From assembly GCA_900142905.1 (NCBI GenBank), contig FSRV01000001.1, forward strand, positions 3,844,001 to 3,908,000: 64,000 nucleotides of DNA, written 5' to 3'. The notes beneath the pieces were generated by a model. It saw only the letters and a program-made list of their open reading frames with translations. It was not told the origin of the DNA and did no database searches. This stretch comes from Burkholderia sp. GAS332 (lineage in GTDB: Bacteria > Pseudomonadota > Gammaproteobacteria > Burkholderiales > Burkholderiaceae). This document shows, one piece after another, positions 2,947 to 64,000 of this stretch. Every line of letters begins with the position of its first letter. The stretch's first letter is position 1. Position numbers and translations under genes: made by a program.

Positions 2947-3125
2947 CGCGGCCGTTGCGGCGCCCACCGCACTATGTGGGCTCACCCCGGTTGATCGGCA
3001 TTTCATCCGGCGCGAATGACCGTAGCGCCGCGCCTGCCCAGCAACACCCTGGGTCATGGCCCGGCCATCGCCCTTCACGAAGAACCCGCGGCACGACGAG
3101 CGTGCCGCCCTCAGCATCTGCATTC

Positions 3126-4049: not shown

Positions 4050-4075
4050 GGCGTTAAGCCCGCACCGCACTGCAC

Positions 4076-4816: not shown

Positions 4817-4820
4817 CCCC

Positions 4821-5279
4821 ATGGATATTCGCAAACTGCAACGCGTGATCGTCGACGCTCTCGAAGACGTCAAAGCGCAAGACATCAAGGTGTTCAACAC
4901 CAGCCACCTGACCGCGCTGTTCGATCGCGTGATCGTCGCCTCCGGCACCTCGAACCGTCAGACCAAGGCACTCGCTTCGAGCGTGCGTGAGAGCGTCAAG
5001 GAAAACGGCGGCGACGTCATCAGCACCGAAGGCGAGGACATCGGCGAATGGGTGCTGGTCGATTGCGGCGACGCGATCGTGCACATCCTGCAACCGGCGC
5101 TGCGCCAGTACTACAACCTCGAAGAAATCTGGGGCGACAAGCCGGTGCGCATCAAGCTGTCGACGCCGAATCCGTTCGGCGGCGCCAGCGCGAGCGAGCC
5201 GCTCGACGACGAGGACGAAGAGGAAGAAGCGCCGGCGGCCAAAAAGCCCGCGCGCAAGACGCCGGTACGCCGCAAGTAA
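4821..5279 (+). CDS. rsfS: Ribosomal silencing factor RsfS
   Basis: A 152-residue Iojap/YbeB-family protein that binds ribosomal protein uL14 and blocks subunit joining when nutrients are scarce. The N-terminus MDIRKLQRVIVDALEDVKAQ and the core around VIVASGTSNRQTKALA are family-typical. The last 35 or so residues are an acidic run followed by a Lys/Arg-rich tail, longer than in E. coli RsfS. I used the ATG at 4821, four bases after nadD. A longer in-frame reading from 4719 would overlap nadD by about 100 bases. Confidence 0.94.
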   Translation: MDIRKLQRVIVDALEDVKAQDIKVFNTSHLTALFDRVIVASGTSNRQTKALASSVRESVKENGGDVISTEGEDIGEWVLVDCGDAIVHILQPALRQYYNLEEIWGDKPVRIKLSTPNPFGGASASEPLDDEDEEEEAPAAKKPARKTPVRRK

Positions 5280-5325
5280 GCACGCTCGAACCGGGCATAG
5301 CGCTTAGTTTGCGACACCATCCGTG

Positions 5326-5796
5326 ATGAAACTGCACATCCTCGCCGTCGGCCACAAGATGCCGGACTGGATCGCCACCGGCTTCGACGAGTACGCGAAA
5401 CGCATGCCGCCCGAGCTGCGCATCGAGCTGCGCGAGATCAAGCCCGAGCAGCGTTCGTCGGGGCGTCCAGCCGAAAGCGTGATGGCCGCCGAGCGGCAGA
5501 AGATCGAAGCCGCGTTGCCGAAGAACGCGCGCATCGTCGCGCTCGATGAGCGCGGCAAGGATTGGACCACGATGCAGCTTGCCGGCGCCCTGCCCGGCTG
5601 GCAACAGGACGGCCGCGACGTGGCGTTTCTGATCGGTGGCGCCGACGGGCTCGATCCCGATCTGAAAGCACGCGCCGATATGCTGCTGCGTGTCTCCAGC
5701 CTGACGTTGCCGCATGCCATGGTCCGCGTGCTGCTCGCCGAACAGCTTTACCGCGCGTGGACCATCACGCAAAATCACCCCTATCATCGCGCATGA
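5326..5796 (+). CDS. rlmH: 23S rRNA pseudouridine-1915 N3-methyltransferase
   Basis: A 156-residue SPOUT methyltransferase using S-adenosylmethionine to methylate pseudouridine 1915 of 23S rRNA. The C-terminal knot shows [14 protein letters not shown] and [18 protein letters not shown], both diagnostic. ATG 5326 gives the canonical length; a GTG three bases upstream is also possible. It sits 46 bases after rsfS, in the order seen in many proteobacteria. Confidence 0.95.
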
Positions 5797-5860
5797 CCGA
5801 ACGAGGCGGCTGACAGACCGTGTGTTTTGGGGTCTCGTTGGCTGCGCTGGTTGGCGCGCT

Positions 5861-5876
5861 GATAGACGCGTCTATC
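5861..5876. repeat. Perfect 16-bp palindrome between rlmH and maf
   Basis: GATAGACGCGTCTATC reads the same on both strands. It lies 134 bases before maf in a 198-bp gap rich in GACGCG-type repeats. It may be an operator; no function can be assigned. Confidence 0.5.
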
Positions 5877-5994
5877 GACGCGCTTATCAACGCGCTCTTC
5901 GTCGTGTCCTTTAATACGCTGATCGACGCTTGACTGACAAGCTCATCGCGCGCTCCTCGCGCATTGACGCAATCCGCCTCATCGAGACCTGTTC

Positions 5995-6624
5995 ATGCCA
6001 ACACCCGCCGCGTCACTGCATCCATTCGTTTACCTCGCCTCCCAGAGTCCACGCCGCCAGGAGCTGTTGCAACAGCTCGGCGTGCGTTTTGAACTGCTGC
6101 TGCCACGTCCCGATGAAGATGCCGAGGCGCTCGAAGTCGAACTACCCGGCGAACGCGCGCGCGACTATGTGCAGCGCGTGTGCATCGCCAAGGCGCACGC
6201 CGCGCGCGCGCGTCTCGTGGCAGGCGGACATGCCGCACGGCCGATTCTGGTTGCTGACACAACCGTCACGATCGACGACGCGATCCTCGGCAAGCCCGTC
6301 GACGCCGACGATGCCGTCGCGATGCTCACGCGTCTCGCGGGCCGCGCTCACGAAGTGTTGACGGCCGTCGCGGTGGTCGATGCAGAAGGCACGCTGCTGC
6401 CTGCTGCGCTATCGGTATCGACGGTGCGTTTTGCTGCACTGCACGCGGACGCCGTCCGCCGCTATGCCGCAAGCGGCGAGCCGCTCGGCAAGGCGGGCGC
6501 GTATGGTGTGCAAGGGCGCGCCGCGGAGTTTATCGAGCATATCGACGGGTCCTATTCAGGTATCATGGGTTTGCCAATTTTTGAAACTGCTGCCCTCCTG
6601 CGTGCAGCGCGCATCGACTTCTAA
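5995..6624 (+). CDS. maf: Maf-family nucleoside triphosphate pyrophosphatase (YhdE type)
   Basis: A 209-residue house-cleaning enzyme hydrolysing non-canonical or surplus nucleotides (dTTP/UTP in the YhdE subgroup) to monophosphates. The N-terminal [15 protein letters not shown] is the Maf substrate-binding motif, and [18 protein letters not shown] carries the catalytic Asp region. The C-terminal [20 protein letters not shown] is also family-typical. It ends nine bases before rng, so the two are probably co-transcribed. Subgroup assignment is tentative. Confidence 0.9.
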
Positions 6625-6633
6625 AATAACACT

Positions 6634-8103
6634 ATGAATGAAGAAATCCTGATCAATGTCACGCCGCAGGAAACGCGCGTCGCGCTCGTCCAGCAAGGCG
6701 CCGTCCAGGAACTTCACGTCGAACGAACGCTGTCGCGGGGACGCGTCGGCAATGTCTATCTCGGCAAAGTCGTCCGCGTTCTGCCGGGCATGCAATCCGC
6801 CTTCATCGACATCGGTCTGGAACGCGCCGCGTTCCTGCACGTAGCGGATATCTGGCATCCGCGCATTGCCGGCGAGCCGCAGCATCAGACGCCGCATCAG
6901 CCAATCGAAAAGATCGTCTTCGAGGGCCAGACGCTGATGGTGCAGGTCGTGAAGGATCCGATCGGCACCAAGGGCGCAAGGCTGTCCACGCAAGTGAGTA
7001 TCGCCGGGCGCACCCTGGTGTATCTGCCGCAGGAGCCGCACATCGGCATCTCGCAGAAGATCGAGAGCGAAGCCGAACGCGAAGCCGTGCGCGCGCGTTT
7101 GACCGCCGTGCTGCCCGCTGATGAAAAGGGCGGCTACATCGTCCGCACCATTGCAGAAGATGCGACCAGCGAAGAGTTGGCTGGCGACGTCGCGTATCTG
7201 CGCAAGACGTGGGCGACGATCATCTCGCAAGGTCAGCGCATGCCGCCGACCAGTCTGCTGTATCAGGACCTGAATCTCTCGCAACGGGTGCTGCGCGATT
7301 TCGTGAATGACGAGACCTCGCGTATTCAGGTCGACTCGCGCGAGACCTATCAGATGCTCGCCGACTTCGCGGCGGAGTTCACGCCGGCGGTGTCGTCGAA
7401 GCTGCATCACTACACCGGCGAACGGCCGCTCTTCGATCTGTACAACATCGAGGCCGAAATCCAGCGCGCCTTGTCACGCCGGGTCGAGCTGAAGTCGGGC
7501 GGGTATCTGGTGATCGACCAGACCGAAGCGATGACGACGATCGACGTGAACACGGGCGGCTATGTCGGCGCGCGCAACTTCGACGATACGATCTTCAAGA
7601 CCAACCTCGAAGCCGCGCACACGATCGCGCGGCAATTGCGACTGCGCAATCTGGGCGGTGTGATCATCATCGACTTCATCGATATGGAGAACGTCGAGCA
7701 TCGCGACCAGGTGCTCGGCGAGTTGAAGAAAGCGTTGTCGCGCGATCGTACGCGCGTGACCGTGAATGGTTTCTCGCAGCTTGGGCTCGTGGAAATGACG
7801 CGCAAACGCACGCGTGAATCATTGGCGCATGTGCTGTGCGAGCCCTGCCCGGTGTGTCAGGGCAAGGGGCAGGTCAAGACGCCGCGTACGGTGTGCTATG
7901 ACGTGCTGCGCGAGATTCTGCGCGAGTCGCGGCAGTTCAATCCGCGCGAGTTCCGCGTGGTGGCGTCGCAGCAGGTGATCGATCTGTTTCTTGAGGAAGA
8001 GTCGCAGCATCTGGCCATGCTGATGGATTTCATCGGCAAGCCGGTGTCGTTGCAGGTGGAGTCGAATTTGAGTCAGGAGCAGTACGATATTGTTTTGATG
8101 TAA
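6634..8103 (+). CDS. rng: Ribonuclease G
   Basis: A 489-residue RNase E/G-family endoribonuclease (CafA) that matures 16S rRNA 5' ends and degrades mRNA. An S1 RNA-binding domain spans about residues 35-125 (RVGNVYLGKVVRVLPGMQSA). The two catalytic Asp regions are visible as MTTIDVNTGGYVGARN near residue 305 and GVIIIDFIDME near 350. The zinc-link CEPCPVC lies near residue 405. Length matches RNase G, not the longer RNase E. The last 74 bases overlap, tail to tail, the 3' end of the opposite-strand DUF3800 gene. Confidence 0.96.
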   Translation: MNEEILINVTPQETRVALVQQGAVQELHVERTLSRGRVGNVYLGKVVRVLPGMQSAFIDIGLERAAFLHVADIWHPRIAGEPQHQTPHQPIEKIVFEGQTLMVQVVKDPIGTKGARLSTQVSIAGRTLVYLPQEPHIGISQKIESEAEREAVRARLTAVLPADEKGGYIVRTIAEDATSEELAGDVAYLRKTWATIISQGQRMPPTSLLYQDLNLSQRVLRDFVNDETSRIQVDSRETYQMLADFAAEFTPAVSSKLHHYTGERPLFDLYNIEAEIQRALSRRVELKSGGYLVIDQTEAMTTIDVNTGGYVGARNFDDTIFKTNLEAAHTIARQLRLRNLGGVIIIDFIDMENVEHRDQVLGELKKALSRDRTRVTVNGFSQLGLVEMTRKRTRESLAHVLCEPCPVCQGKGQVKTPRTVCYDVLREILRESRQFNPREFRVVASQQVIDLFLEEESQHLAMLMDFIGKPVSLQVESNLSQEQYDIVLM

Positions 8104-8953
8104 TCTGCCCCGCGTCGGCACGCTGCGTCAGCGGCGGGACGGCAAACAACGCCGCCGCAGAACGCCCTTCGTGCAAGTCGACCACGCCGATGCTCCAATG
8201 CGGCCCAGCGCGGAACTGGAGCCGCTTGATCCGCTTTGCATAGCGCCGGCGAATTATCAGATCTCTTCCTTGAACGTGCACACCCGTCACGTGCCCGAAA
8301 CAATATGCGGACGACGCCATCGGGAACAGCAGTGTGCTGCAAAGCACATCCGTTAGCTGCAGACCGACGTGATTATTGCTGATACCAAAGGTCGGCAACT
8401 CGAGAATGCGGGCGAACGGATCGCCCTTCGCTCGATACTTTTGCGTGAAGATTGAATGCGCGACCTGGTCGTTCAGTTGTGTTGTCCTAAAATCCGCAAC
8501 AATCAAGCCCTCGGCGTTTTTTTCATCAAGAAAGGCCTGAAAGCGCTGACACGCCATCTGCACAGACCGTGTATAGATCTCACGAGCCTTGAAAGGCTTT
8601 CCCACACCTTTCGCCCATAACGAAGCCAGCACACGGCAATTCAATCGCTCGAGCAAAGCCAGAATTTCGTCGACGTAACGCAATTCAGTTCTGGCTTGCA
8701 GTCCACGTCTGCGGATAGCACCACGGACGTCCGATCCTTTGACTTCCTCCCGTATATCGTCCAGCAAATGGGGCGACGTGAACAGTCCTGGAAAATACTT
8801 TCGCTTCAGCGCAAGGAAGTTGGTAGTCAACTCAGCCAGCGCACTTCGATCGACAATCAGCCCAGCAATCGCGAGGATGGGTTGTACATCTGTTTTCTTC
8901 GCAGCGAGCGGAGTGGCACAGCCCGCTTCGTCGATGTAACAAATGTATGTCAT
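8030..8953 (-). CDS. DUF3800 domain protein
   Basis: A 307-residue protein starting MTYICYIDEAGC. The early DEAG matches the DE[SA]G motif of DUF3800, and HVGLQLTDVLCSTLLF near the C-terminus matches its Q-x-x-D motif. DUF3800 is predicted to have an RNase H-like fold, but its activity is unknown. It is often found in accessory regions and near candidate structured RNAs. ATG 8953 is preferred; a TTG at 8971 would add six residues. The gene overlaps the 3' end of rng and has its own promoter and hairpin-rich leader at 8960-9104. It is the only minus-strand gene within the first 11 kb. Confidence 0.82.
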   Translation of the reverse strand: MTYICYIDEAGCATPLAAKKTDVQPILAIAGLIVDRSALAELTTNFLALKRKYFPGLFTSPHLLDDIREEVKGSDVRGAIRRRGLQARTELRYVDEILALLERLNCRVLASLWAKGVGKPFKAREIYTRSVQMACQRFQAFLDEKNAEGLIVADFRTTQLNDQVAHSIFTQKYRAKGDPFARILELPTFGISNNHVGLQLTDVLCSTLLFPMASSAYCFGHVTGVHVQGRDLIIRRRYAKRIKRLQFRAGPHWSIGVVDLHEGRSAAALFAVPPLTQRADAGQITSKQYRTAPDSNSTPPATTPACR

Positions 8954-8975
8954 CCTAAATTTATTCCCCAAATGA

Positions 8976-8999
8976 AAACAGCCGCTAAAGCGGCTGTTT
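8976..8999 (-). terminator. Perfect 11-bp hairpin before DUF3800 gene (terminator or attenuator)
   Basis: AAACAGCCGCT (8976-8986) and AGCGGCTGTTT (8989-8999) form an 11-bp stem with a 2-nt loop. On the minus strand it ends in TTTTCATTT, which looks like an intrinsic terminator. It sits only 22 bases upstream of the DUF3800 ATG and inside the leader. Confidence 0.65.
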
Positions 9000-9001
9000 G
9001 G

Positions 9002-9075
9002 CGGTCTAAGACCGTATTTGTCGCCAGGGGATCCCCCGTTCGACGAGCGGCTAACCCTCGGAAAGCCGTAACTCG
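9002..9075 (-). ncRNA. Candidate structured leader RNA or small RNA upstream of DUF3800
   Basis: Successive hairpins are visible. CGGTCT/AGACCG lies at 9002-9014, and a GGGGATCCCC palindrome at 9027-9036. A larger stem pairs CGAGCGGCT (9044-9052) with AGCCG (9064-9068) and, across a 3-nt bulge, CTCG (9072-9075). Together with the terminator-like hairpin they would make a discrete RNA of roughly 90-100 nt read on the minus strand. The outermost CTCG may lie just upstream of the predicted start site. Candidate structured RNAs beside DUF3800 genes have been reported; membership here is inference. Confidence 0.45.
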
Positions 9076-9104
9076 ATACTATCGGCTCAGGCGTAAAACG
9101 TCAA
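9076..9104 (-). promoter_or_regulatory. Sigma-70-type promoter for the DUF3800 leader
   Basis: On the minus strand, TTGACG (9104-9099) and TAGTAT (9081-9076) are separated by exactly 17 bases. The -35 matches consensus at 5 of 6 and the -10 at 4 of 6. Transcription would start near 9069. Confidence 0.6.
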
Positions 9105-9356
9105 TATCCACATTGGCTTTCCCGTCCCCCGCCATGTCATCAAAGCCAGTGGTCATCGTGTCCACCTGCGCGAGTCGGAACCCTCTCCTCTTTCCGCAAC
9201 CTGCGTGGATTGCCGCAAGCCATGTCGCCGCTCAAAGAAGCTCTACCGGCCCTCAATTTCCCCATTGACGCCATCCGAACCAGGCGCGTATAACCATCCC
9301 ATTGGATGTTAATCGGATGGCGTACGGATGCCAAGCGAACGCCGAACGGGATAGAA

Positions 9357-9782
9357 ATGGCCAACCTCAAACTCATCGACACCTCGCGCCCCAAAGGCGG
9401 CGAGACCGAAAAAATCACCATCAACCTCGGCCCGGTCGACCTGGGCCAGATCGACTTACTCGTCGAAGAGGGTTTTTATTCGAACCGCACCGACCTGATC
9501 CGTACGGCGATCCGCAACCAGCTCGCCGTCCACGCACAAGTCGTCACGGAAACGGTGACCCGGCGCGCGCTGGTGCTCGGCTTGCAGCACTTCTCGAAGC
9601 AGGACCTTGAAGCCGCTCAAGCCGCGAATGAACGACTGGACATTCATGTGCTCGGCCTTGCCAGCATCGCAGCCGATGTGCCGCCAGAACTCGCGGCAGC
9701 CACGATCGCATCGGTGGCGGTGCTTGGCGCATTTCACGCGTCGCCCGCGGTCAAGGCCGCGCTCGCCGGCCGCATCAGATAG
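9357..9782 (+). CDS. Ribbon-helix-helix (CopG/ParD-like) protein
   Basis: A 141-residue protein. Residues about 18-50, EKITINLGPVDLGQIDLLVE followed by FYSNRTDLIRTAIRNQL, look like a ribbon-helix-helix DNA-binding unit: a beta strand and two helices as in CopG/MetJ/Arc. The second half is Ala-rich and helical without a recognised domain. ATG 9357 gives MANLKLIDTSRP; the upstream in-frame extension is rejected as non-conserved in character. It sits 119 bases before a PHB depolymerase, so it may regulate polymer metabolism. No toxin partner is adjacent, arguing against a toxin-antitoxin role. Confidence 0.75.
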   Translation: MANLKLIDTSRPKGGETEKITINLGPVDLGQIDLLVEEGFYSNRTDLIRTAIRNQLAVHAQVVTETVTRRALVLGLQHFSKQDLEAAQAANERLDIHVLGLASIAADVPPELAAATIASVAVLGAFHASPAVKAALAGRIR

Positions 9783-9901
9783 CCCCGCGCGACGTGACTA
9801 ATCCTAGGGCTGAGCATGCGATTGAACATGGGGTTGAACCAGTGAAGCTCGTCGCCTGACCCTGCCACACCCAGTGCAAGTCAACGCTATAGCCTACGAA
9901 C

Positions 9902-11029
9902 ATGAAAATGAATGAAGATTTCCTGAAGTCAATGAAAGAAGCCTTCGACCTGTTGCGCACGAAGGGGCCCAAGGAAGCGACCGCCGCGGTTCAGCGCGCG
10001 CTCGCGGGCAGTACGGCTAAAGCAGGTAATGCCCAAACCCCACCCATGCCGCCGAGCGTCAACGAATGGGCGCAAGCGTGGACGCAGGCGCAAACTCAAG
10101 GTCAGGCGCAATCACACGCCAACACCACGCCACACGCCCCTGCCGAGCGCACTTTCGACGCCGACACGCCCGGCACCTTCAGCACCCACACCTTCAGCAA
10201 CAGCGCGGGCCAACGCCAATACAAGCTCTACGTCCCCGCCGTCTACAACAATGAACCGTTGCCGCTAATCGTGATGCTGCACGGCTGCACACAAAACGCC
10301 GACGACTTCGCGGCCGGTACGCGCATGAACGAAATGGCCGAGCGTCATGGCTTCATCGTCGTGTATCCGAATCAGTCGCAAGCGGCCAATCATTCGGCAT
10401 GCTGGAACTGGTTCAAACCTGTCGACCAGCAGCGCGACCAGGGTGAACCGTCGTTGATCGCAGGCATTACGCGTGAGGTGATCGCGCGCTATCGCGTCGA
10501 TCCAGCGCGGGTGTATGTGGCGGGCCTGTCAGCGGGCGGCGCAATGGCGGACATCATGCTAAAGACCTCACCCGACTTGTACGCGGCAGCCTGCGTGCAT
10601 TCCGGCCTCGCCTACGGAAGCGCGAAGGATCTCCCCTCGGCCCTCGCCGCGATGAAGGGCGGCAAAGCACATCGCAACCGCTCACGCGTCGAACCGCAAC
10701 GCCCGCTCATCGTGTTTCATGGCGATGCGGATACGACGGTGCATCCGTCGAACGCTGCAGCGCTCGTAGCGAGCTTCGACGCCAGCGTCACGACAATCAG
10801 CGCGCCATCGCATGTCGTAGGCACGGCAAGCGGCCCGCACGCTTGCACGGTGCAACGGCTTGTCGCAGCGAATGGCGTCGAAGCGGAGTGCTGGTCGATT
10901 CACGGCGCGGGTCATGCATGGGCAGGCGGTAGTCAGCGCGGCTCGTACACGGACCCATCCGGCCCCGATGCGACAGCCGCCATGCTGCGCTTCTTTCTCG
11001 CCCATCCGCGTGCGTCAGGCACACACTGA
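9902..11029 (+). CDS. PHB depolymerase-family esterase (alpha/beta hydrolase)
   Basis: A 375-residue protein of the LpqC/PHB-depolymerase esterase family, expected to hydrolyse short-chain polyhydroxyalkanoate oligomers or related esters. The oxyanion region LIVMLHGCTQNADDFA lies near residue 125. The lipase box GLSAGGA has its Ser near residue 210, the acid is in HGDADTTVHP near 275, and the catalytic His is in GHAWAGG near 337. Residues 1-90 resemble the PHB-esterase N-terminal region: a short helical start and a Gln/Ala-rich linker. No clear signal peptide is visible, so it may act inside the cell or leave by another route. The phasin gene follows. Confidence 0.87.
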   Translation: MKMNEDFLKSMKEAFDLLRTKGPKEATAAVQRALAGSTAKAGNAQTPPMPPSVNEWAQAWTQAQTQGQAQSHANTTPHAPAERTFDADTPGTFSTHTFSNSAGQRQYKLYVPAVYNNEPLPLIVMLHGCTQNADDFAAGTRMNEMAERHGFIVVYPNQSQAANHSACWNWFKPVDQQRDQGEPSLIAGITREVIARYRVDPARVYVAGLSAGGAMADIMLKTSPDLYAAACVHSGLAYGSAKDLPSALAAMKGGKAHRNRSRVEPQRPLIVFHGDADTTVHPSNAAALVASFDASVTTISAPSHVVGTASGPHACTVQRLVAANGVEAECWSIHGAGHAWAGGSQRGSYTDPSGPDATAAMLRFFLAHPRASGTH

Positions 11030-54666: not shown

Positions 54667-54825
54667 CCGGTACGCGGACCGGTCAGATCGATCAGTGCGG
54701 CGATAAGCCGGACTGTTTTTCCATTTGACGCAGGCATACTTGCGTCTGCCTTCGAAGCATCGGGCTTCGCCGGTTAAACTCGATGGATTGCGTTTTTGCG
54801 CGTCCGTCATTCGTTGATGTCCAGT

Positions 54826-56595
54826 ATGCACACGGTAGTTTTCGGCTGGTTCGGCGGGTCAGCCGTCTGGTTTATTCCTCTTTTGTGGCGCCTCGTGAAG
54901 TCGGTGCTGCCAGGCGGCGCAGGTCTGCGCGGTCCCGGCACGATCCGCCTTTGGCTCGGCTTCGTCTGCGTGATGGTGGCCAGTTGCACGCTGGAGGCGT
55001 CGCTGATCGGCGCGGCCAGCGTGAATGGTTTCGGCCATGCGCTGGCGGCGGGCTTCGGTCATCTGCTCGGGCATATCGGCACGCCGCTCGCGGCGCTCGC
55101 TCTGTTCATGATCAGCCTGCCCTGGCTGATCGACTTCCGCTGGCGCGACGTCGCCGTATGGGCCGATGGTGCATTCGGCCTCGGCCTGTCGCGCGGCCTC
55201 GCCAAACGCGACGAGGAAGCGCGCCGCCATCGCAGCGTCGATGACGGTTTGCCGTCGCACGTGTCGCCGTCCACCAATACGATGGCGCCCAAAAACACTG
55301 GGCGTTATGCGCGCCCGACCGTCTGGCGGCCGCCGGCGAGTGGCCGCGGCGCGGCCGCTGGCACTGGCGCCGCTGGTGCAGCGGCGCCCAGGGAGGCAGC
55401 GGCGCGTGGCGCCGGGGCAAGCTGGCGCGCCGGCGCTGTGAAGACGCGCAATCCGGCCACGCAGGCGGAGCCGGTGCTGCGTACGTCCGCCGCAACGCCG
55501 CCGCGCCAGACGCCGCGGCAAGCGCCGATGCAATCACCGACGCCACCCCAGACACACTCGCTGAACGCGGACAAGGCTGCATGGATGCCGGCCGAACCGG
55601 TTGCGCCGGCTGGATGGTTGCGCGAATCGGCAACGGCGCCGCGCGCGTCTGCATCCGCAGCCGGTTCGACGGCGGGATCAGGAACGACAACGACTCCGGC
55701 TCGCGATGGCGCATCGCCAGTGGGTCGGCGCTCGGCTGGCGAGCAACGTCCGGTGGGCTCGTTGGCGGCCGGTTCGGGCATGACGGGTATGGCCGGTCTC
55801 GCGGGTGCAGTCGCCTCTCCGGTTGCTGCGGCGCAAGTAGCGCCCACCATGGCGGCAACGCGGATGGTGTCAGGTTCGGCCGCCGGTTCGGCAACGAACG
55901 CCTCGGCCGGCGCAGGCCGTCCGTCGACGATACAGGGTTCAGCAGCCCGTGGCGGCGCGCAAGGAAGCCGCGCCACAGCCGCCCAGCAGCCGTTCTCGCC
56001 CGCTCCGCGCGCGAATTCCAACAACCCGCCGGCGCAGACAACGCGGCGTCCGGCTTCGTTCAGCGCCCCGGCACCGAGCTATACCCGGCCGATGGCCACC
56101 GCGGAGAAGGTCACGCCCCCCGCCAGCGTCCAGGAGACGCTTCGCAGCATCGCGGAAAACGCCGCGCGCTGGACCGACATCGCCGGCGTCAGCCTCGCGC
56201 GCAGCAGCGGCGCGGAAAACGCGATGGTCACGACGCATTCGTTGAGCACCGAGCCACGGGTCGAGATTGGGCAATCGGGTGTGGCTTCGTCGCGTGCAAG
56301 CGAAGTTGAAGTCGGCGCGGCGCCGAACGTTAGCGCGCCTTTGCAGGCCGTAGCCGAGACTGCGCCGGACCTTACGCCGCCGCTGTCGGCAGTAGAGACG
56401 CCGCGAATCGAAGCGGCATCCGGGGCGCCGATCCAGGACAACACCGAGCCCGTCGTGCAGTGGCCGATTGAGCCGCCGCTCATCCAGACACCGTTGGGCA
56501 CGGCGGTCGCAGCCGCGTCCGCATTGGCATCGACACAGGCGGAAGCATCGGCGCAAGCAGAGGCCCCCCCGCACCGGCGTCGACACAAGCAATAG
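54826..56595 (+). CDS. ftsK: FtsK DNA translocase, N-terminal part (upstream of frameshift)
   Basis: 589 residues before a stop reached through a frameshift. Residues about 1-110 contain three hydrophobic helices ([57 protein letters not shown]), a membrane anchor shorter than the four helices of E. coli FtsK. The rest is a long Ala/Pro/Ser/Thr-rich linker. It ends [13 protein letters not shown]. Just before this, a C7 tract (56564-56570) shifts the frame; with C8 the reading would run straight into the downstream motor ORF. The start is uncertain (ATG 54817 or 54826, or TTG 54796); no clear SD is seen. Confidence 0.8.
56564..56570 (+). other. C7 homopolymer where the ftsK reading frame breaks
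   Basis: Before the tract the frame encodes [14 protein letters not shown]; after it the next frame encodes [20 protein letters not shown], the same kind of repeat. Adding one C (or removing two) joins them. It could be a true mutation, a phase-variable slippery tract, or a sequencing error. Confidence 0.8.
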
Positions 56596-56624
56596 CACCG
56601 CCCGCTTCGGCGTCGGCACAAGCA

Positions 56625-59246
56625 GTGGCACCGCCAGCTCCAGCGTCGACACAGGCAGCAGCGCCGCCAGCACCAGCGTCGACACAGGCAGTGGCATCCG
56701 CACCGGCGGAGGTATCGACATCTGCACCTGCACCTGCACCTGCACCTGCACCTGCACCTGCACCTGCACCTGCACCTGCACCTGCACCTGCACCTGCACC
56801 TGCCTCGCAGTATGCAGCGCCGGCGCCGACGCCCACCCCGTTTCAGATCTTCGCGGCCCAGTTGCAGGCGAGCGACGCGCAAACGGACGTGTCGTCGTTC
56901 GTTGAAGACGAACCGACACAATTCGCGAATCAGAGCGACAGCCATGCAAACGCACCCGCTGAACGCGAGCAACCGATCAGTCATGCGGTGCCGTCGCAGG
57001 TGGCGGCATCGGATGTCGGCAACATCACCGCTCCCGCAGAAGCAGCGCGTGCCGAAACTTTGCGCACTGAGCAGGGACAGCCGTTTGATCAACCTGCAGC
57101 GTATTCACAAATTGCAGCGTCAAACGAGACGACTACGGCTGATACAGCGGCAGTAGCTCACGTTAGCGAAATGCGCGCCGAAGAAGTGCCGTCGTCCACC
57201 CCGGCTCCCGCACCGTCGCAGGACGCGACGACGCACATTGCGCAGATCGCACCCACGCAAGCGCACACCGCGACGCCCGTGCCAATGCATCACGCCACCC
57301 CGCCATGGCAGGTTGCGAGCGTGAGCGAAGCACCCGCGCCAGTCGAAGCGGAAACCGTGGACGCCCCTGCTCTACCGGACGTATCCGACGTATCCGACGA
57401 TTTGAACTCGTCAGTTGCCTCGGACGCTTCGACCACGGTCGCAGCAGTACAGCCGCCAAGCGCCGCATTGCACGCGTCGAATGTGGTTCGCTTCCCTGGC
57501 TTCGCGGTTCAGGCCACACCGGCGGCCTCTGCCACCATCGTCGACGAAGGCGCCGACGGGTTGGGTTACGCGCCGAGCGCACCGACAGCGCAGGAAGCGC
57601 CGAGCTTCCCCACCACCCCAACCGCGTCTTCTGCCGCCCACTTCGCAACTGAAGCGTCGACCGAGCCCGCAGAGCCCACCGAACCCGCAGAACCCGCCGT
57701 CCAGCGCACGCCGCTGCGCGGCCACAGCCCGGCCAATGGCTTCGAATTCCGCGCACCCGCGGCATCGATGGTCGAATTGCCGACCCTCGACCTGCTCGCG
57801 CTCGCCGATACCGATGTCGAACCCGTTTCAGAGGAAAAACTCATCGAAACCGGCCTGCTGATCGAGCAGCGTCTGCAGGAGTTCAAGGTGCCGGTCACTG
57901 TGGTCGGCCATTCGGCAGGCCCGGTCATCACGCGCTTCGAAATCGAGCCCGCACTCGGCGTGCGCGGCAGTCAGATCGTCGGCTTGATGAAGGATTTGTC
58001 GCGCGGCCTCGGCCTCACGTCAATTCGCGTGGTCGAGACGATTCCCGGCAAAACCTGCATGGGTCTCGAACTGCCGAATGCCAAGCGGCAGACGATTCGC
58101 CTGTCCGAAATCCTCGAAGCCAGCGTCTACCAGAACTCGCATTCGCAGTTGACGCTCGCGATGGGCAAGGACATCACCGGTCATCCGGTGGTCGCCGATC
58201 TGGCGAAGGCGCCGCACATGCTGGTCGCGGGTACGACGGGTTCGGGCAAATCCGTGGCGATCAACGCCATGATCTGCTCGCTGCTCTACAAGGCGACGCC
58301 CGAGGAAGTGCGGCTCATCATGATCGACCCGAAGATGCTGGAACTGTCGGTCTACGAAGGCATTCCGCATCTGCTCGCGCCGGTCGTCACCGATATGAAG
58401 CTGGCGGCCAACGCGCTGAACTGGTGTGTCGGCGAAATGGAAAAACGCTATCGGCTCATGTCCGCGGTCGGCGTGCGCAACCTGGCCGGCTTCAACCAGA
58501 AGATCCGCGATACGGAAGCCAAGGGCAAGAAACTCGGCAACCCGTTCTCGCTGACGCCGGAAGCACCGGAACCGCTCGCGCCGCTGCCGCTGATCGTGGT
58601 GGTGATCGACGAGCTGGCCGACCTGATGATGGTCGCGGGCAAGAAGATCGAAGAGCTGATCGCGCGTCTCGCGCAGAAGGCGCGCGCCGCCGGCATTCAC
58701 CTGATTCTGGCGACGCAGCGTCCGTCTGTGGACGTGATCACGGGCCTCATCAAGGCGAACATTCCGACACGCGTGGCGTTCCAGGTGTCGTCGAAAATCG
58801 ACTCGCGCACGATTCTCGATCAGATGGGCGCCGAATCGCTGCTTGGCCAGGGCGACATGCTGTTCCTGCCGCCGGGTACGGGTTACCCGCAGCGCGTGCA
58901 CGGCGCATTCGTCGCCGACGAGGAAGTGCATCGGATCGTCGAGTATCTGAAGCAGTTCGGCGAACCGCAATACGAAGAAGGCATTCTCGATGGGCCGGCG
59001 ACCGAAGGCGCGTCGCAGGACCTGTTTGGAGATACGCCCGAGGCAGAGGCCGATCCGCTTTACGACGAAGCCGTCGCGTTCGTGGTACGCACGCGGCGCG
59101 CCTCGATCTCGTCGGTGCAGCGGCAATTGCGCATCGGTTATAACCGCGCGGCGCGTCTCGTCGAGCAGATGGAGACGGCGGGACTGGTGTCGGCAATGGG
59201 GATTAACGGCAGCCGTGAAGTGCTCGCGCCGGGGGCGGCTGAGTGA
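56625..59246 (+). CDS. ftsK: FtsK DNA translocase, linker and motor part (downstream of frameshift)
   Basis: 873 residues if started at GTG 56625, although the coding sense continues upstream to the C7 tract at 56564. Residues 1-400 are disordered Ala/Pro-rich linker including 13 AP units. The motor follows: Walker [15 protein letters not shown] near residue 536 and Walker [14 protein letters not shown] near 655, then [20 protein letters not shown]. The C-terminal winged-helix gamma domain ([20 protein letters not shown]) recognises KOPS. The protein pumps chromosomal DNA at the septum and activates XerCD. It would be about 1470 residues if intact. Its 3' end is duplicated at 60111-60225. Confidence 0.92.
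56724..56801 (+). repeat. 13 perfect tandem copies of GCACCT in the ftsK linker
   Basis: 78 bases of uninterrupted GCACCT encode (Ala-Pro)13. No third-position changes are present although neighbouring Ala/Pro codons vary, which suggests recent expansion by slippage. Unit changes would keep the frame. Confidence 0.95.
59125..59239 (+). repeat. ftsK 3'-end direct repeat, copy A
   Basis: 115 bases at the end of ftsK, repeated at 60111-60225 in the same orientation with six mismatches (109/115). Copy A lies within the intact ftsK gamma-domain codons and stops seven bases before the ftsK stop ends. Confidence 0.93.
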
Positions 59247-59273
59247 TCCTGTATAGGGACGTTCTACGGCGCG

Positions 59274-59366
59274 CTAGTCAATGAGTTTGAAATCCGGGGC
59301 CGGTCGCACGATGTCACGGGCTAAAGTTGCGCGGGCAAATTCATTGACTTCCGGCGCCCCAGAGAA
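59274..59366 (-). pseudogene. C-terminal remnant of a fifth immunity-like gene
   Basis: Read on the minus strand, about 30 codons give FSGAPEVNEFARATLARDIV and end PDFKLID before TAG (59276-59274). They align with the ends of the array proteins: AGPPDVLEFARSHYPF and ending GFAIED, or TGPSDVLKFSQGNYPF and ending NFQIVD. The spacing from the EFAR segment to the stop is the same. The upstream part of the gene is lost or unrecognisable. Confidence 0.5.
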
Positions 59367-59378
59367 AACCGCGATCTG

Positions 59379-59403
59379 AAAAGGCGCGACAACCGCGCCC
59401 TTT
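59379..59403 (-). terminator. Probable terminator of the immunity gene at 59435
   Basis: On the minus strand AAAGG(G)CGCG pairs with CGCGCCTTT across GTTGT, with one bulged G, then TTTT. It is about 30 bases past the stop of the immunity-like gene and could also act weakly on the ftsK side. Confidence 0.5.
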
Positions 59404-59434
59404 AGTTTGTCGACGACAGCTTGTATCTATAGCT

Positions 59435-59962
59435 CTAGTCAACTATCTGAAAATTCGCACCCGGATAGAGGAAGAAAGGATAGTTCCCTTGACTGAACTT
59501 GAGAACATCCGACGGTCCGGTTAAGGCGCTCATTTCCTTGCTCCAGTTTCCGTACACGAACCAACTGCCATTGATCGGCAAAATCGCATAGCGTTGTGCG
59601 TTGCTCGCCAACGCATCTGCCAAGCTGTCGCCCGGGTCAGCATTTAAAAATGCAAAGTAGTCGTCGACGCTGTGCTCAGGGCCGACGAAGAAAGCCGGAT
59701 ATTTTTTGAAATGGTGATGAAAATAGGTGAACGGATCCGGGCGGAGGGCAAGTACGGCGAAAGTATCTGCGCCCTCGAACGCTAGCAGCGCACGGATAAA
59801 GAAGAAAAACGTCGGGGTAGAGATATCGATCGAGTCAAAATAAAGCGTCGGTTCGGTCCGCGCAGAGCCGGCCAGAGTCTGGACCGCCGCGTTCGCGCGA
59901 TCCCATAACGGCAAGAAATCTTCCAGATTGCTCAGAAAGTTGCCTTTTTGTCGATTAATCAT
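59435..59962 (-). CDS. Immunity-like protein 4 of the Rhs orphan array
   Basis: 175 residues; AGGTGG four bases before ATG 59962. Shares with its array paralogues TLYFDSIDISTPTF, PDPFTYFHHHFKKYPAFFVG, LNADPGDSLADALAS, LPINGSWFVYGNW, and TGPSDVLKFSQG. It is acidic with no signal peptide, as expected for a cytosolic immunity protein. It is preceded by the 3' tail of a toxin gene (60017-60110), whose cognate it may once have been. No named family is recognised; assignment as immunity rests on context and paralogy. Confidence 0.7.
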   Translation of the reverse strand: MINRQKGNFLSNLEDFLPLWDRANAAVQTLAGSARTEPTLYFDSIDISTPTFFFFIRALLAFEGADTFAVLALRPDPFTYFHHHFKKYPAFFVGPEHSVDDYFAFLNADPGDSLADALASNAQRYAILPINGSWFVYGNWSKEMSALTGPSDVLKFSQGNYPFFLYPGANFQIVD

Positions 59963-60016
59963 TTCCCACCTAAGCGAATTTTTACTGTAGCTTTGCCATC
60001 ATTCACGGTTCCCATT

Positions 60017-60110
60017 TCACTTCAACCTTATTTTGGTTGTCTTCGTGTCGTTGATATAAACATCAGCAGTCGGATAGCCCGTGTTCGATTCGTCTCGAAC
60101 AGAGTATGTT
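60017..60110 (-). pseudogene. Orphan 3' tail of an Rhs toxin domain
   Basis: About 30 codons on the minus strand read LTYSVRDESNTGYPTADVYI and end KTTKIRLK-stop. They align with the end of the resident Rhs toxin, QYTVREQSNSGWITADAKRS ending AKIRLGGQ. The tail starts exactly at the junction with the ftsK-end copy (60110/60111) and stops 54 bases before the immunity gene at 59962. It is a displaced toxin remnant. Confidence 0.72.
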
Positions 60111-60225
60111 AATTGCGCATCGGTTATAGCCGCGCGGCGCGCCTCGTCGAGTAGATGGAGACGGCGGGACTGGTGTCTGCAATGGGGATTAACGGAAGCC
60201 GCGAAGTGCTCGCGCCGGGGGCGGC
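60111..60225 (+). repeat. ftsK 3'-end direct repeat, copy B (decayed)
   Basis: Matches 59125-59239 at 109 of 115 positions. The six changes include an in-frame TAG where ftsK has CAG, so copy B does not encode a functional ftsK end. It is flanked by an orphan toxin tail on one side and a truncated immunity gene on the other, offset 986 bases from copy A. Confidence 0.93.
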
Positions 60226-60455
60226 GGAAAAAGTATGCGACGAGTGGAATTGCCGCAGGCAGAAAACGGGCTGCCGCTGTCGCAAAGTGACAGGCGTTTG
60301 TATAAGATCGAAAAATTTTGTGTCGCCATATCGATGGGATCGAAGTACAACAGCTCGTCCGGTGACTTGTTGACAAGCGACTGGACACCCGTTCTCGCGC
60401 GACTCCAGAGCGCCATAAGCACTGCAAGATCATGTATGTAGTCTAGTTGGTTCAT
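60226..60455 (-). pseudogene. Truncated immunity-like gene 3
   Basis: From ATG 60455 the frame reads MNQLDYIHDLAVLMALWSRA and ELLYFDPIDMATQNFSILYK, matching residues 1-70 of the array paralogues. It then runs into the antisense of the ftsK-end copy and stops in foreign sequence at 60189. The conserved YF-HFGK, ADPGDS and GEWF segments are missing, so the product is unlikely to work. Confidence 0.72.
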
Positions 60456-60511
60456 TTGTTAACACACGAGGTGGTTGCCACGACGGATCTCAACCGCGCC
60501 CCTGTCACTGG

Positions 60512-60610
60512 TTACTCAATATTCGGCGGTAGAACCACCGAATATTGAGCGGACACACGTACTGTATTTCCGGTATCGTCTTTTCTAAAGAAATCGCTTT
60601 TTTCGTTCGC
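60512..60610 (-). pseudogene. Orphan toxin tail preceding immunity-like gene 3
   Basis: Directly after the stop of the gene at 60611 the minus strand reads ANEKSDFFRKDDTGNTVRVS and continues AQYSVVLPPNIE-stop (60514-60512). The same sequence type recurs at 61148-61284, so it is the end of a toxin class different from the KIRL-ending one. It lies 57 bases before immunity-like gene 3. Confidence 0.55.
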
Positions 60611-61111
60611 CTAGCCAGGATTCTCGTCGAAGGTGAATGACTCTCGTGCGAACTTCATGATATCTGCCGGCCCGGATAGCACACCCGAGCCCCAATCCCA
60701 GTCTCGATCGGCATACATGAACCACTCGCCTACAATCGGCAGCACAACATACTGCTCTGAATAGAAACCCATAGCATCGGCTGGACTGTCGCCGGGGTCC
60801 ATCATCAAGATTTCAAAAAAATCGTCGTCGTTATGATGTGCTTCAACAATGAATCCCGGATACTTACCAAAATGAAAATGAAAATAGTTGAACGGATCGG
60901 GGTTCAATACGATCACCGCGAGTTCACCGGTTCCACTGAATGCCGCGAGACTGCGGATAAGATCGCGATATCTTTCCGTGCCAATGGAAGACGAGTCAAA
61001 GTAGAGCAACTCCGTAGTCGGAATCTTTGACACTTTTTGCATGCAAGCGTGCGCACGCTGCCAAAGCGACCTGAACGTCTCGTCGTCTTGAATAAAACCA
61101 ATGTTAGTCAT
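60611..61111 (-). CDS. Immunity-like protein 2 of the Rhs orphan array
   Basis: 166 residues from ATG 61111. Contains ELLYFDSSSIGTERYRDLIR, LNPDPFNYFHFHFGKYPGFI, MMDPGDSPADAMGF, LPIVGEWFMYAD and LSGPADIMKFARES, collinear with its neighbours, and ends FDENPG. Very acidic, no export signal. It is preceded by a toxin tail remnant (61148-61284) and followed by another, fitting an orphan toxin-immunity module. Compared with protein 1 it lacks the last five residues. Confidence 0.7.
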   Translation of the reverse strand: MTNIGFIQDDETFRSLWQRAHACMQKVSKIPTTELLYFDSSSIGTERYRDLIRSLAAFSGTGELAVIVLNPDPFNYFHFHFGKYPGFIVEAHHNDDDFFEILMMDPGDSPADAMGFYSEQYVVLPIVGEWFMYADRDWDWGSGVLSGPADIMKFARESFTFDENPG

Positions 61112-61147
61112 TTCGCCAACCTGATCCGTGTCCCTTTCAGCATCAGC

Positions 61148-61284
61148 TACTCAATAGCCGGCGGCAGCACCACCAAATATTGGGGGACCCACGCACTGTA
61201 TTGCCCGCACCGTCTTTTCTGGATATAAAACCGAAGAAACGCAGTCGCTCGCGCCCCTTCGGTTCAGCGCGCTTCTCCCTCGAT
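61148..61284 (-). pseudogene. Orphan toxin tail preceding immunity-like gene 2
   Basis: The minus strand contains RFFGFISRKDGAGNTVRG, matching the SDFFRKDDTGNTVRV tail at 60512-60610. A one-base deletion near GGGTCCCCCAAT then shifts the frame, after which nucleotides again align up to ATTGAG-TAG (61150-61148). It is a decayed copy of the same toxin end. Confidence 0.52.
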
Positions 61285-61806
61285 TTAATCTTCGATCGCG
61301 AACCCGGGGTTCTCCTCGAATACTGAGAAAGGATAGTGGCTGCGGGCGAACTCGAGGACATCAGGCGGTCCAGCCATCGCTGCTAGCTCCTGTTTGCGAT
61401 CCGCGTAGATCATCCATTCCCCGCTGAGTGGAAAAACCGCATAGCGCTCAGAATTTGCATCAAATGCATCCGCCAGGCTGCCACCCGGATCAGCATTCAG
61501 TGATGCAACGAAATCCCGATCGGAATGCTCAGGGAGAAAGACCAGGGCTGGAAACTTTCCGAAATGGCGATAAAAGTAGTCGGCTGGCGCCGGACGCAGA
61601 ACCAACGCCACGAACGAGGTTTCGCCGCGACTTGAAAGTAGCGAACGGATGAATCCGTGATAGCGAAACGTGCAGATATCCGACGAATCAAAATACAGTG
61701 CAGTCCCCGATCGGACGGCGTTGGCGACCAAATGCATGCCCTTATCCGATTGTTTTCGCAAACGATCGAACAATTCGCTATCTTTCAAATATTCACTCTT
61801 GCTCAT
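61285..61806 (-). CDS. Immunity-like protein 1, cognate candidate of the resident Rhs toxin
   Basis: 173 residues. Its ATG overlaps the Rhs stop in ATGA (61806-61803), so translation is coupled, as for toxin-immunity pairs. Motifs: TALYFDSSDICTFRYHGFIR, PAPADYFYRHFGKFPALVFL, LNADPGGSLADAFDA, FPLSGEWMIYAD, and MAGPPDVLEFARSHYPF. Acidic and cytosolic. It should neutralise the C-terminal toxin domain encoded just upstream. Three further full or partial paralogues follow on the same strand. Confidence 0.8.
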   Translation of the reverse strand: MSKSEYLKDSELFDRLRKQSDKGMHLVANAVRSGTALYFDSSDICTFRYHGFIRSLLSSRGETSFVALVLRPAPADYFYRHFGKFPALVFLPEHSDRDFVASLNADPGGSLADAFDANSERYAVFPLSGEWMIYADRKQELAAMAGPPDVLEFARSHYPFSVFEENPGFAIED

Positions 61807-64000
61807 TGCCCACCCAACCGGATCTTCGCTATGTTGTCCCCACTGCGCTTGGCATCGGCAGTGATCCATCCAGAGTTTGATTGCTCCCGGACAGTGTACT
61901 GACTTTCCCCCTTAGTAAAGATGTCTGCCTTGCCGTCCTTGCTCAGCGTCCGCACGTAACCGCTTTCGATCAAGTTTGCCTCGAACTCAGCCTTGCCTAC
62001 GTCAGTCTTGATATTGCGAATGCTCTTGCCTGCGGTGATGTCTGTGTATTCCGACGTGATGCGTCCCGGCGGAATCCCATCCACCTCCGTTTCCGCTGCA
62101 GGCTTGCACATCTGCTTGATACGGTCCCAGTTCTCAGCAGCTTTTCTCGCGCCCTGACCGATGCCGTACTTGACGGCGGGATTGTTGACGAGTCGCCAGA
62201 CGAACACGATTCCCCGTGCCGCGCCGTCGATCAGCCCGGCCGAGAAATGGCAACCACCACACACAGTCGAAGCCGAAAGCGAAGAAGCACGGAGAAGCTG
62301 ACGTGCGCCCTGAAGGTTTGCCGGGGGCGCTATAGGCGAGTCTCCATAGTTGTAGTTATCGATCCACTGATTGATTTCCTCATCGCTAACCGGGATATCC
62401 GTGCCGTCGTTCAGGTCCAGCAGACTGCCGTTTCTGGCAACCGTGCCCGTACGTGACACGACCTGGCCATCGGGCGAATACGTGAACCTGACTTTTAAAA
62501 TGCGCCGGATACCGCCATTCGCAGGGCTTGCGTACTCCTGGAACGTAAAGATGTCGACACGCCCGCGCTGGTCATAGCGCATGAAATAGTCGCCGGTCGG
62601 GTTGTAGCCGTACTCGATCCGGTGAGCGGCATCGCGCGAAATTGCCTCGCTGGCGACGTCTCGCTCCACGGGATAGATTGAAAATACATTCCCGGTCGCA
62701 TCGCGCGTCACGAACCATTGAGCGACGACCTTCCCATCGGCGAGTTGTTGGGCGAACGAGAGCCGGTTCGTCGCGTCGTACGTCATGCCGTAGGCCATCG
62801 TGACGGCGCCTTCAACCTTCGGCGCATCGAAGCCTTTAATTCCGGTCGTGTCGTTCGTTGGCATCTCGGCGATGCCCGTCGTGTTTCCGCGAGAGTCGTA
62901 GACGAACGACTGAATCAGGTTCGGCGACGCAATCATCGCCGGACGCAAGCTCGTCGTATCGGCATAGCGAATCGACGATATCGAAGTCCCCGAGGCGCGC
63001 TTGACGGTCGCCTTGATGGGACGCCCAGTTTCGTCGTAGCTGTATTCCGACGTTCCGCCGCTTGCGTCTGTATCTTTCAGCAGATTGCCCGATGCATCCC
63101 ATGCGCTACTGGCGTTGCCTGCCATCGACGTGCTGGTCGTCGGACGCAGCACGCCGCCAATCGACGACGTGTTCAACGTTGTGGTGCGCTTGCTGCCGGT
63201 GATGACCGTTGAGCCGGTGCTATAGGCAAACTGCACATTGCGGGCGGCGTCAGGATGGTCGACTGCTACCGCGCGCCCTTTCGCGTCATACGTCCATGTC
63301 GCGACACGCGTGCCAACTTCATTGATCTCGCCTGTCAGGGCATTCTTGAATCGGGAATCTTCATAGGCATAGCGGTGTGTGTAGCCATCCGGCCACGTAA
63401 CGGAGACGAGATTGCTATTCGCGTCGTAACCGTACTGCGTCATTCGCCCCAAAGGATCGTTCAGGCGCGACAGACGACGCTTGTCGTCGTAGTCGAGTCG
63501 AAGCGTAATGTCCTTCTTCGCGTCCGTGCCCGCAGCATGCTGGGTGATCGCCGTTGGCAGGCCCGATGCATCGTAGGTCAGCGTGCGGATAAACTGGGTC
63601 TTCGTCTCCTCCGACAGCAGAACCCCTCGCGCCGAGTACGACTCGACTGTTTCCGTCTGGAGGTCCGTAAGCACCCAGCCGGACGCGTTCTGCGTGAGTG
63701 CCAGGCCGGTAAATCCAGCAGTACGCCAGGTGCCCCCTAACCAGTTGAATGTGACAGGCTCGCCATTCGCGCGATACGCAATAACCTTTGATGAACTGCC
63801 GCTGTTCGCATTCGCGAGATCCAGGCTGCGCTGCCAGCTATGGAACCAGACCGGCCCCATCCAAGCTGCATTCTTGACAAGCGGTTTCGAGCGATAGGTG
63901 CGCGTAAACGACATCGGAATATCGTCGCCGCTGACGAAATCCGCTTCCGTCAGCGTGACCGCGCCATTGCCGGGATAGACCGGATCGGCAACTGGGCAGC
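61803..64000 (-). CDS. Rhs/YD-repeat polymorphic toxin (N-terminus beyond window)
   Basis: The frame is open to the right edge; 732 codons are visible. Near the edge lies ADPVYPGNGAVTLTEADFVS, a DUF6531-type pre-Rhs segment, then SFTRTYRSKP and YD repeats (for example YGYDANSNLVSVTWPDGYTH, TWTYDAKGRAVAVDHPDA). The usual DPxGLGG motif before the toxin is not visible. The variable C-terminus, after GDSPIAPPANLQGARQL, contains a Cys/His CGGCHFSAG segment and a terminal domain TSEYTDITAGKSIRNIKTDV ending NIAKIRLGGQ, whose activity I cannot name. Rhs proteins are delivered by type VI or other secretion; no vgrG or hcp is in view. Composition is less GC-rich than the core genes. Confidence 0.87.
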   Translation of the reverse strand, partial: CPVADPVYPGNGAVTLTEADFVSGDDIPMSFTRTYRSKPLVKNAAWMGPVWFHSWQRSLDLANANSGSSSKVIAYRANGEPVTFNWLGGTWRTAGFTGLALTQNASGWVLTDLQTETVESYSARGVLLSEETKTQFIRTLTYDASGLPTAITQHAAGTDAKKDITLRLDYDDKRRLSRLNDPLGRMTQYGYDANSNLVSVTWPDGYTHRYAYEDSRFKNALTGEINEVGTRVATWTYDAKGRAVAVDHPDAARNVQFAYSTGSTVITGSKRTTTLNTSSIGGVLRPTTSTSMAGNASSAWDASGNLLKDTDASGGTSEYSYDETGRPIKATVKRASGTSISSIRYADTTSLRPAMIASPNLIQSFVYDSRGNTTGIAEMPTNDTTGIKGFDAPKVEGAVTMAYGMTYDATNRLSFAQQLADGKVVAQWFVTRDATGNVFSIYPVERDVASEAISRDAAHRIEYGYNPTGDYFMRYDQRGRVDIFTFQEYASPANGGIRRILKVRFTYSPDGQVVSRTGTVARNGSLLDLNDGTDIPVSDEEINQWIDNYNYGDSPIAPPANLQGARQLLRASSLSASTVCGGCHFSAGLIDGAARGIVFVWRLVNNPAVKYGIGQGARKAAENWDRIKQMCKPAAETEVDGIPPGRITSEYTDITAGKSIRNIKTDVGKAEFEANLIESGYVRTLSKDGKADIFTKGESQYTVREQSNSGWITADAKRSGDNIAKIRLGGQ

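Follow-up and report, generated by a model that had tools for sequence, protein, structure and literature searches.

A displaced ftsK end inside a Burkholderia rhs/immunity array, a probable scar of array growth

INTRODUCTION

Orphan arrays of toxin tips and immunity genes are known, and their formation has so far mostly been inferred from gene order. Two models have been put forward. In one, arrays arise through circular intermediates between rhs cores (Jackson et al. 2009, PMC2935791). The other is homology-facilitated illegitimate recombination, proposed for type VI secretion system (T6SS) clusters of Vibrio cholerae (Kirchberger et al. 2017, PMC5361080; also PMC9711863, PMC6336857 and PMC11751169), and it predicts one non-homologous end. 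Here we describe an rhs/immunity array in Burkholderia sp. GAS332, within a stretch of 64,000 nucleotides (hereafter the window; positions 3,844,001-3,908,000 of a 4.99-Mb contig, FSRV01000001.1, in a genome of 10.4 Mb). The array borders the gene ftsK, and a second copy of the ftsK 3' end lies inside it. We call the intact end copy A and the displaced one copy B, and refer to the members of a family of putative immunity genes in the array as ImmA to ImmE (Table 1).

Rhs C-terminal displacement (PMC2935791) shares with the window an intact rhs gene followed by displaced toxin tips and partner genes; one toxin end in the window (60009-60110) is the end of a toxin that is intact in Paraburkholderia domus. 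The displaced tips of that system keep a piece of rhs core, whereas the two toxin ends in the window (about 30 and 16 codons) have none. In addition, circular intermediates between rhs cores would not pick up ftsK, which lies beyond the last tip, but the window array has an ftsK end inside it. This speaks against a circular intermediate for this event. The V. cholerae T6SS arrays (PMC5361080) are alike in that an effector is cut down, the old immunity gene is kept and shifted, and one end is homologous and the other is not. Two features of that model are seen in the window, a non-homologous join with 0 bp shared and a gene, ImmD, that was kept while its toxin was lost. In the window, the non-homologous end falls within ftsK and is resolved to the single base; the V. 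cholerae arrays have no neighbor-gene scrap in the accessible description.

Orphan arrays of Acinetobacter cdi loci (PMC6336857) show a similar stepwise displacement, for which the same mechanism was proposed. They encode two-partner secretion toxins, and the capture of border genes mentioned there accompanies, in the accessible text, the movement of whole islands, in contrast to a scrap inside an array. Effector swapping in the T6SS of Pseudomonas aeruginosa (PMC11751169) resembles the window in having one dominant breakpoint and less precise downstream ones, for example at argH; these are population breakpoints, and no retained second copy of a neighbor's end appears in the accessible text. 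We found no report of a neighbor-gene scrap inside such an array in the literature searched, which took in few subscription papers and no supplements. The mechanism itself is already known.

RESULTS AND DISCUSSION

A displaced ftsK border inside the array

Copy A (59125-59239) and copy B (60111-60225) start 986 bp apart and are identical at 109 of 115 bases, or at 111 of 118 when extended to 59242 and 60228. The runner-up ungapped match to copy A in the whole window, on either strand, reached only 56 of 115. Copy B keeps the ftsK frame, has TAG in place of an in-frame CAG, and carries AAA at the position of the TGA stop of copy A. The alignment bears out a preliminary description made from this DNA alone, which had reported a 115-bp repeat of the ftsK end with 109 matching bases and an in-frame stop. 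Searching the genome with the ftsK end returned three matches, namely, A, B, and a second FtsK-type gene (80%) located at 4.05 Mb on the same contig. A search of plasmid records with 58900-62300 found nothing beyond low-coverage matches to the ftsK end. An assembly artefact is an unlikely source of the repeat, because neither the copies nor their flanks are identical and the contig spans 4.99 Mb.

The differences between the copies point to a history as a gene. Before the stop codon there are eight, six of them at third codon positions (P = 0.02 against an expectation of 1/3). At five of these six sites, the base of copy B also occurs in the ftsK of some of 15 other species aligned; the sixth third-position change, the missense change, and the nonsense change are private to copy B in this alignment. 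Between copies A and B, 7 of 118 sites differ; the 15 other species differ from copy B at 9 or more of 118 sites and from copy A at 10 or more of 122. Given that the differences are mostly at third positions and that five of the bases recur in other species, the simplest reading of these sites is that copy B was formerly a working ftsK allele, distinct from copy A, of the same species or a close relative.

Copy B does not stop where ftsK stops. Its match to Paraburkholderia polaris RP-4-7 runs without a gap from 60111 to 60294, 66 bp beyond the ftsK stop, and 60232-60294 is 84% identical over 63 bp to the sequence directly after the ftsK stop in that species. Used alone, this 66-bp flank (X) matched only the window genome and P. 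polaris at E 0.05 among 146 downstream sequences (143 genomes, three of them represented twice). For the corresponding flank in P. domus LMG 31832, a relationship shows only when the alignment is extended into the ftsK end (83% over 249 bp). Because it carries the flank that follows ftsK in P. polaris, copy B is, on these alignments, a displaced border of ftsK and island rather than a random copy. The displaced piece therefore does not end at 60225, as had been described. An immunity gene, ImmC, is truncated as reported; the cut is at 60294 and is made by the ftsK flank. We also considered the hairpin and spacer near 59378-59434 as ftsK flank and rejected this, as they are a repeated end of immunity modules; the ftsK flank is thus limited to 60229-60294.

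Both edges of the displaced border are sharp. Homology to the end of the P. domus toxin stops at 60110 and ftsK homology starts at 60111, with 0 bp shared, so that the exact junction with a toxin tail noted earlier was correct. At 60294, homology to an intact immunity relative on contig 2 of the same genome begins, with about 1 bp shared. The window thus holds two ftsK-bordered array stretches in tandem, which meet at the blunt join 60110/60111.

The segment between the copies (59247-60110) is 864 bp long. It had been described as an 870-bp cassette with an immunity gene and toxin remnants; those contents are there, together with an ImmE remnant, a hairpin, and toxin ends of two types. ImmD is the only open reading frame (ORF) of at least 60 amino acids wholly inside the segment, and no integrase or recombinase was found there. 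ImmD is intact, whereas about 16 codons are left of its own toxin and about 30 of the next one. The latter end (60009-60110) was considered as the tail of ImmD's own toxin. This was rejected, because the remnant of that toxin is 59963-60009, and 60009-60110 is of the P. domus type. The partner of this toxin type in P. domus is ImmE, and at the join the toxin end has lost its own partner. A search of the PDB with the toxin end gave nothing better than E 0.29.

The hairpin, together with about 40 bp, recurs at the 3' ends of several immunity genes (window 59378-59434 and the islands of Paraburkholderia haematera LMG 31837 and P. polaris). It may be a shared terminator or a recombination handle between modules.

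The ftsK locus in relatives

We surveyed the sequence downstream of ftsK in 143 of 144 genomes of the genus, in stretches of 1.5 to 17.8 kb; one genome (G130; G and L numbers are our handles) was left out because of a weak ftsK match. Among the genes tested, a lactonase-like gene comes next in 137 of the 143, at a distance of up to 300 bp in 124, 301-1000 bp in 12, and farther in 1. A GH15 gene comes next in one genome, and another has none of the tested genes. The remaining four have an rhs/immunity island, namely, the window genome (G000), P. domus LMG 31832 (G027), P. haematera LMG 31837 (G043), and P. polaris RP-4-7 (G074). These islands sit between ftsK and the lactonase-like gene with the array end towards ftsK. 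The four genomes fall in one well-supported clade of 16, mixed with island-free genomes (30 genomes, two trees). In the window genome, the ancestral ftsK terminator lies at the far end of the island, adjoining the lactonase-like gene; the island therefore sits between the ftsK stop and its old terminator.

The preliminary description had suggested comparing this junction across relatives. The comparison found a second ftsK end downstream of ftsK in the window genome only, among the stretches of the 143 genomes, and different cassettes next to ftsK in the four island genomes. A hit in a further genome (G129) is the gene's own end. In that genome, ftsK breaks at the residue where copy B starts; this was rejected as a parallel, as it is a pair of frameshifts in a draft contig. 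No further ftsK end was found in 18 kb of the window locus, and its far border holds the ancestral terminator instead.

Most of the segment between the copies has a counterpart in P. haematera. Copy A, the ImmE remnant, the hairpin, ImmD, and the end of ImmD's toxin (to 60009) have the same order there, at 92-96% identity. P. haematera has more sequence between the ImmE remnant and the hairpin, and it has no copy B. Its toxin remnant beside ImmD, of about 52 residues, differs from 60009-60110, and a shorter relative of that end lies nearer ftsK. P. domus carries the ImmE type after its Rhs gene, and the end of this immunity gene is about 150 bp from the ftsK stop, on its downstream side. ImmD is the intact module nearest ftsK in three of the four island genomes (the window genome, P. 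haematera, and P. polaris).

Ten genomes without rhs (L097, L108, L109, L112, L139, L150, L163, L171, L173, and L184) have a gap of 738-922 bp between ftsK and the lactonase-like gene. By eye, most of the ten have this gap filled by similar ORFs of unknown role.

A neighbor-gene scrap in a second array

Paraburkholderia bryophila LMG 23644 (L197; the same contig is L240 of G016) also has a neighbor-gene scrap in an rhs/immunity array. The scrap, 260 bp long and with two in-frame stops, matches the 3' part of the gene next to the array at 86% identity. It lies between the second immunity gene and a further set. The bordering gene has Pfam Phosphoesterase and phospholipase C C-terminal domains, as a phospholipase C gene. 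A relative, Paraburkholderia sp. BL21I4N1, shows the plain order of Rhs, one immunity gene, and the neighbor gene.

We counted as an array any locus with at least two members of this immunity family and let fragments count as members. Counted by hand, 2 of 12 arrays hold a neighbor-gene scrap, the window array at ftsK and that of P. bryophila. The other ten are in G043, G074, contig 2 of the window genome, G015, G044, P. xenovorans, P. solitsugae (L200 = L254), G091, G005, and G118. Repeats in G044 (L242) were considered as scraps and rejected; by eye, they are further immunity-like genes. We also compared 40 rhs loci with themselves (E 1e-6, 60 bp) and found no scrap near the rhs 3' end. One of these loci is only 2.8 kb long, and four are also among the 12 arrays. 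Loci L251, L252, L254, L256, L269, L272, and L279 were inspected more closely, and repeats lying farther out were left out in L261, L262, L265, L266, L273, L277, L284, and L288.

Direct repeats of 38-97 bp flank the rhs/immunity loci L075 (at 3755, 10134, and 12402; with TGTGGATAAC), L195/L244, and L200. The repeats recur one gene further on, and similar triple repeats occur in two other species. These repeats were left out of the count of gene scraps.

Origin of the displaced border

We consider it probable that copy B is a scar of array growth, in which two ftsK-bordered versions of the array were joined blunt at 60110/60111 during displacement of an rhs tip by homology-facilitated illegitimate recombination. 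Linear DNA from another strain or a close relative, ending 115 bp inside its own ftsK, would have been taken in. One of its ends would have entered by homologous recombination, and the other would have been fused non-homologously to the end of the resident toxin gene. Of the resident toxin, only the last codons would have survived; the older immunity gene ImmD would have been retained, and the ftsK end of the donor, with its 66-bp flank, would have been left as a non-coding scrap. This scrap would later have lost its stop and gained one nonsense and one missense change, with other rearrangements at 60009, at 60294, and near 59377 before or after. We read copy B as the non-homologous end of a linear fragment because the join 60110/60111 shows one such end, and because a circle formed between rhs cores would leave out a gene beyond the array. 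Candidates for the homologous anchor are the Rhs core and ftsK; identity scans showed no clear crossover.

We lean slightly towards the Rhs side (Rhs, ImmA, ImmB, the ImmC 5' part, X, and the displaced ftsK end) as the import and the ftsK side as resident, since ImmD is the intact ftsK-near module in three of the four island genomes. The neighbor's identity is probably incidental, ftsK being simply the gene next door, because P. bryophila carries a scrap of a different one. What stood of the preliminary description is a recombination footprint in an ftsK-bordered toxin-immunity array; site-specific integration at ftsK is not supported.

Several observations weigh against this account. Topology alone fits an import from either side. 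The ftsK-side half, judged by its alignments, is itself composite, with a P. domus-type toxin end at the join and additional joins near 59377 and at 60009. Mosaicism is also seen on the Rhs side, which is closest to P. haematera, P. domus, or P. polaris depending on the part of the alignment. The relic is short, and the allele and donor assignments depend on few sites. Cases are few (the two arrays above), and the P. bryophila scrap is without the last codons of the neighbor gene, so that more than one event must have occurred there. Last, G087, the genome nearest to that of the window in the lactonase tree, lacks an island at ftsK; whole islands are therefore gained or lost at times.

The same two versions could have been joined with ftsK itself as the homologous anchor. 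Incoming DNA carrying copy A, the ImmE remnant, ImmD, and the toxin end would have recombined in the body of ftsK, and its far end would have been joined without homology to the resident ftsK 115 bp before the end, pushing the old border inward. We give this a lesser but appreciable probability; of the explanations considered, it comes nearest to the preliminary description. The topology would be identical, and 59247-60009 is a block 92-96% like P. haematera. However, ImmD's position in three of the four genomes makes this half look resident, and ftsK shows no jump in identity towards P. haematera that would mark a crossover, a weak test. This version is compatible with the general reading of joined borders, and ftsK as the homologous arm of one exchange is possible. 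If the ftsK end had simply been duplicated in tandem inside a single genome and had then decayed, this would explain why A and B are closer to each other than either is to the 15 other species. Such a history is improbable, as the 3' flanks differ (the ImmE remnant against X), an array lies between the copies, and copy B has bases of other species at five third-position sites.

Two further explanations give the repeat a role of its own. Site-specific integration, with the ftsK 3' end as attachment site and A and B as attL and attR around an 864-bp element, would fit direct repeats of a conserved gene's 3' terminus, of which one retains the gene end. This is largely refuted, and we regard it as very improbable. 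The marks of an integrase-type island are absent, as the segment has no recombinase and neither 18 kb of the locus nor its far border holds another ftsK end; most of the segment is found as the array end in P. haematera, where no second repeat occurs; the differences between A and B are mainly at synonymous sites; and the P. bryophila array holds the scrap of another neighbor. For the same reasons (59247-60009 present in P. haematera with no second ftsK end, no integrase, and a different gene in P. bryophila), a special role of ftsK as an integration site, in the sense of the anchor for acquiring cassettes suggested earlier, is not supported. Direct repeats of 118 bp could recombine by RecA, and the repeat might be a site kept for excising or capturing the ImmD segment. 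Judged from the two sequences, recombination between the copies would delete ImmD, but ftsK would then contain either the TAG or the lost stop. Because such an exchange would damage ftsK, the relic probably hinders excision rather than helping it. Copy B is also decaying, and a functional repeat is the most doubtful of the explanations considered.

We return to copy B as the trace of a blunt join between two array versions. A neighbor-gene scrap gives both sides of a single non-homologous join and shows that the captured DNA was continuous with the donor chromosome beyond the array. Tentatively, and with the odds somewhat against it, border-gene scraps inside arrays could be a general base-level signature of growth, left when linear foreign DNA running into the donor's neighbor gene is joined blunt to a resident toxin gene. 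If so, scraps would give the direction and the sequence of single capture events and, for such events, would speak against circular intermediates. Any array of the rhs, cdi, or T6SS kind is open to a computer search for scraps, and models of circular intermediates and linear fragments could thus be separated with existing genomes.

Other features of the locus

Table 1. Features of the array end next to ftsK in the window of Burkholderia sp. GAS332, in window coordinates.
Feature	Position	Strand	Evidence
Copy A, intact ftsK 3' end with TGA stop	59125-59246	+	Pfam FtsK_gamma on ORF; repeat
ImmE-type immunity gene, 3' remnant, directly after ftsK stop	59247-59377	-	Matches P. domus and P. haematera; junction as in P. 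haematera; immunity-gene homology at island 431-532
Terminator-like hairpin and short spacer	59378-59434	.	Copies in P. haematera (island 903-962) and P. polaris (about 486-545, 1204-1252)
ImmD, intact putative immunity gene	59435-59962	-	Protein 97% (P. haematera) and 94-95% (P. polaris) identical
About 16 last codons of ImmD's own toxin	59963-60009	-	Common to P. haematera
Orphan end of other-type toxin, about 30 codons and stop	60009-60110	-	89% DNA identity to end of intact P. domus toxin
Copy B, displaced ftsK 3' end, in-frame TAG, natural stop lost	60111-60228	+	Repeat; alignment
Copy B continued, P. polaris-type sequence after ftsK (X)	60229-60294	+	Match to P. polaris
ImmC, 5' part only; 3' part replaced by displaced ftsK border	60294-60455	-	Homology to intact relative
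ImmB, intact putative immunity gene	60611-61111	-	ORF; family alignment
ImmA, putative immunity gene directly behind attached Rhs toxin	61285-61806	-	ORF; family alignment
Rhs protein, RHS repeats and C-terminal toxin domain, continues beyond window	61803-64000	-	ORF, domains

ImmA, ImmB, the ImmC 5' part, ImmD, and the ImmE-type end belong to one family of putative immunity proteins, a role that we infer from position and polymorphism. ImmD is 41-51% identical to the other aligned members and 95-97% identical to its counterparts in P. haematera and P. polaris. Pfam searches with 13 members found nothing at E 0.001 or better, the PDB likewise gave nothing at this cutoff, and two members had no NCBIfam match at 0.01. 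A confidently predicted model of ImmD (mean predicted local distance difference test score, pLDDT, 85) resembled no solved fold at E 0.001 or better, the best being 0.73.

Six aligned Rhs C-termini have most of the toxin domain in common and differ mainly in about the last 35 residues. Tip exchange may therefore swap a short specificity segment rather than a whole toxin.

The ftsK gene is split into two frames, 54796-56595 and 56625-59246, at window 56565-56625. Seven consecutive C residues lie beside the split, and a long (CACCTG)n tract that encodes Ala-Pro comes right after; the split is either a sequencing error or a real frameshift. Among the other arrays, L251 (G091) holds nine immunity genes and a displaced rhs tip at 2994-10933, with an ORF at 7889-8998 that by eye is transposase-like.

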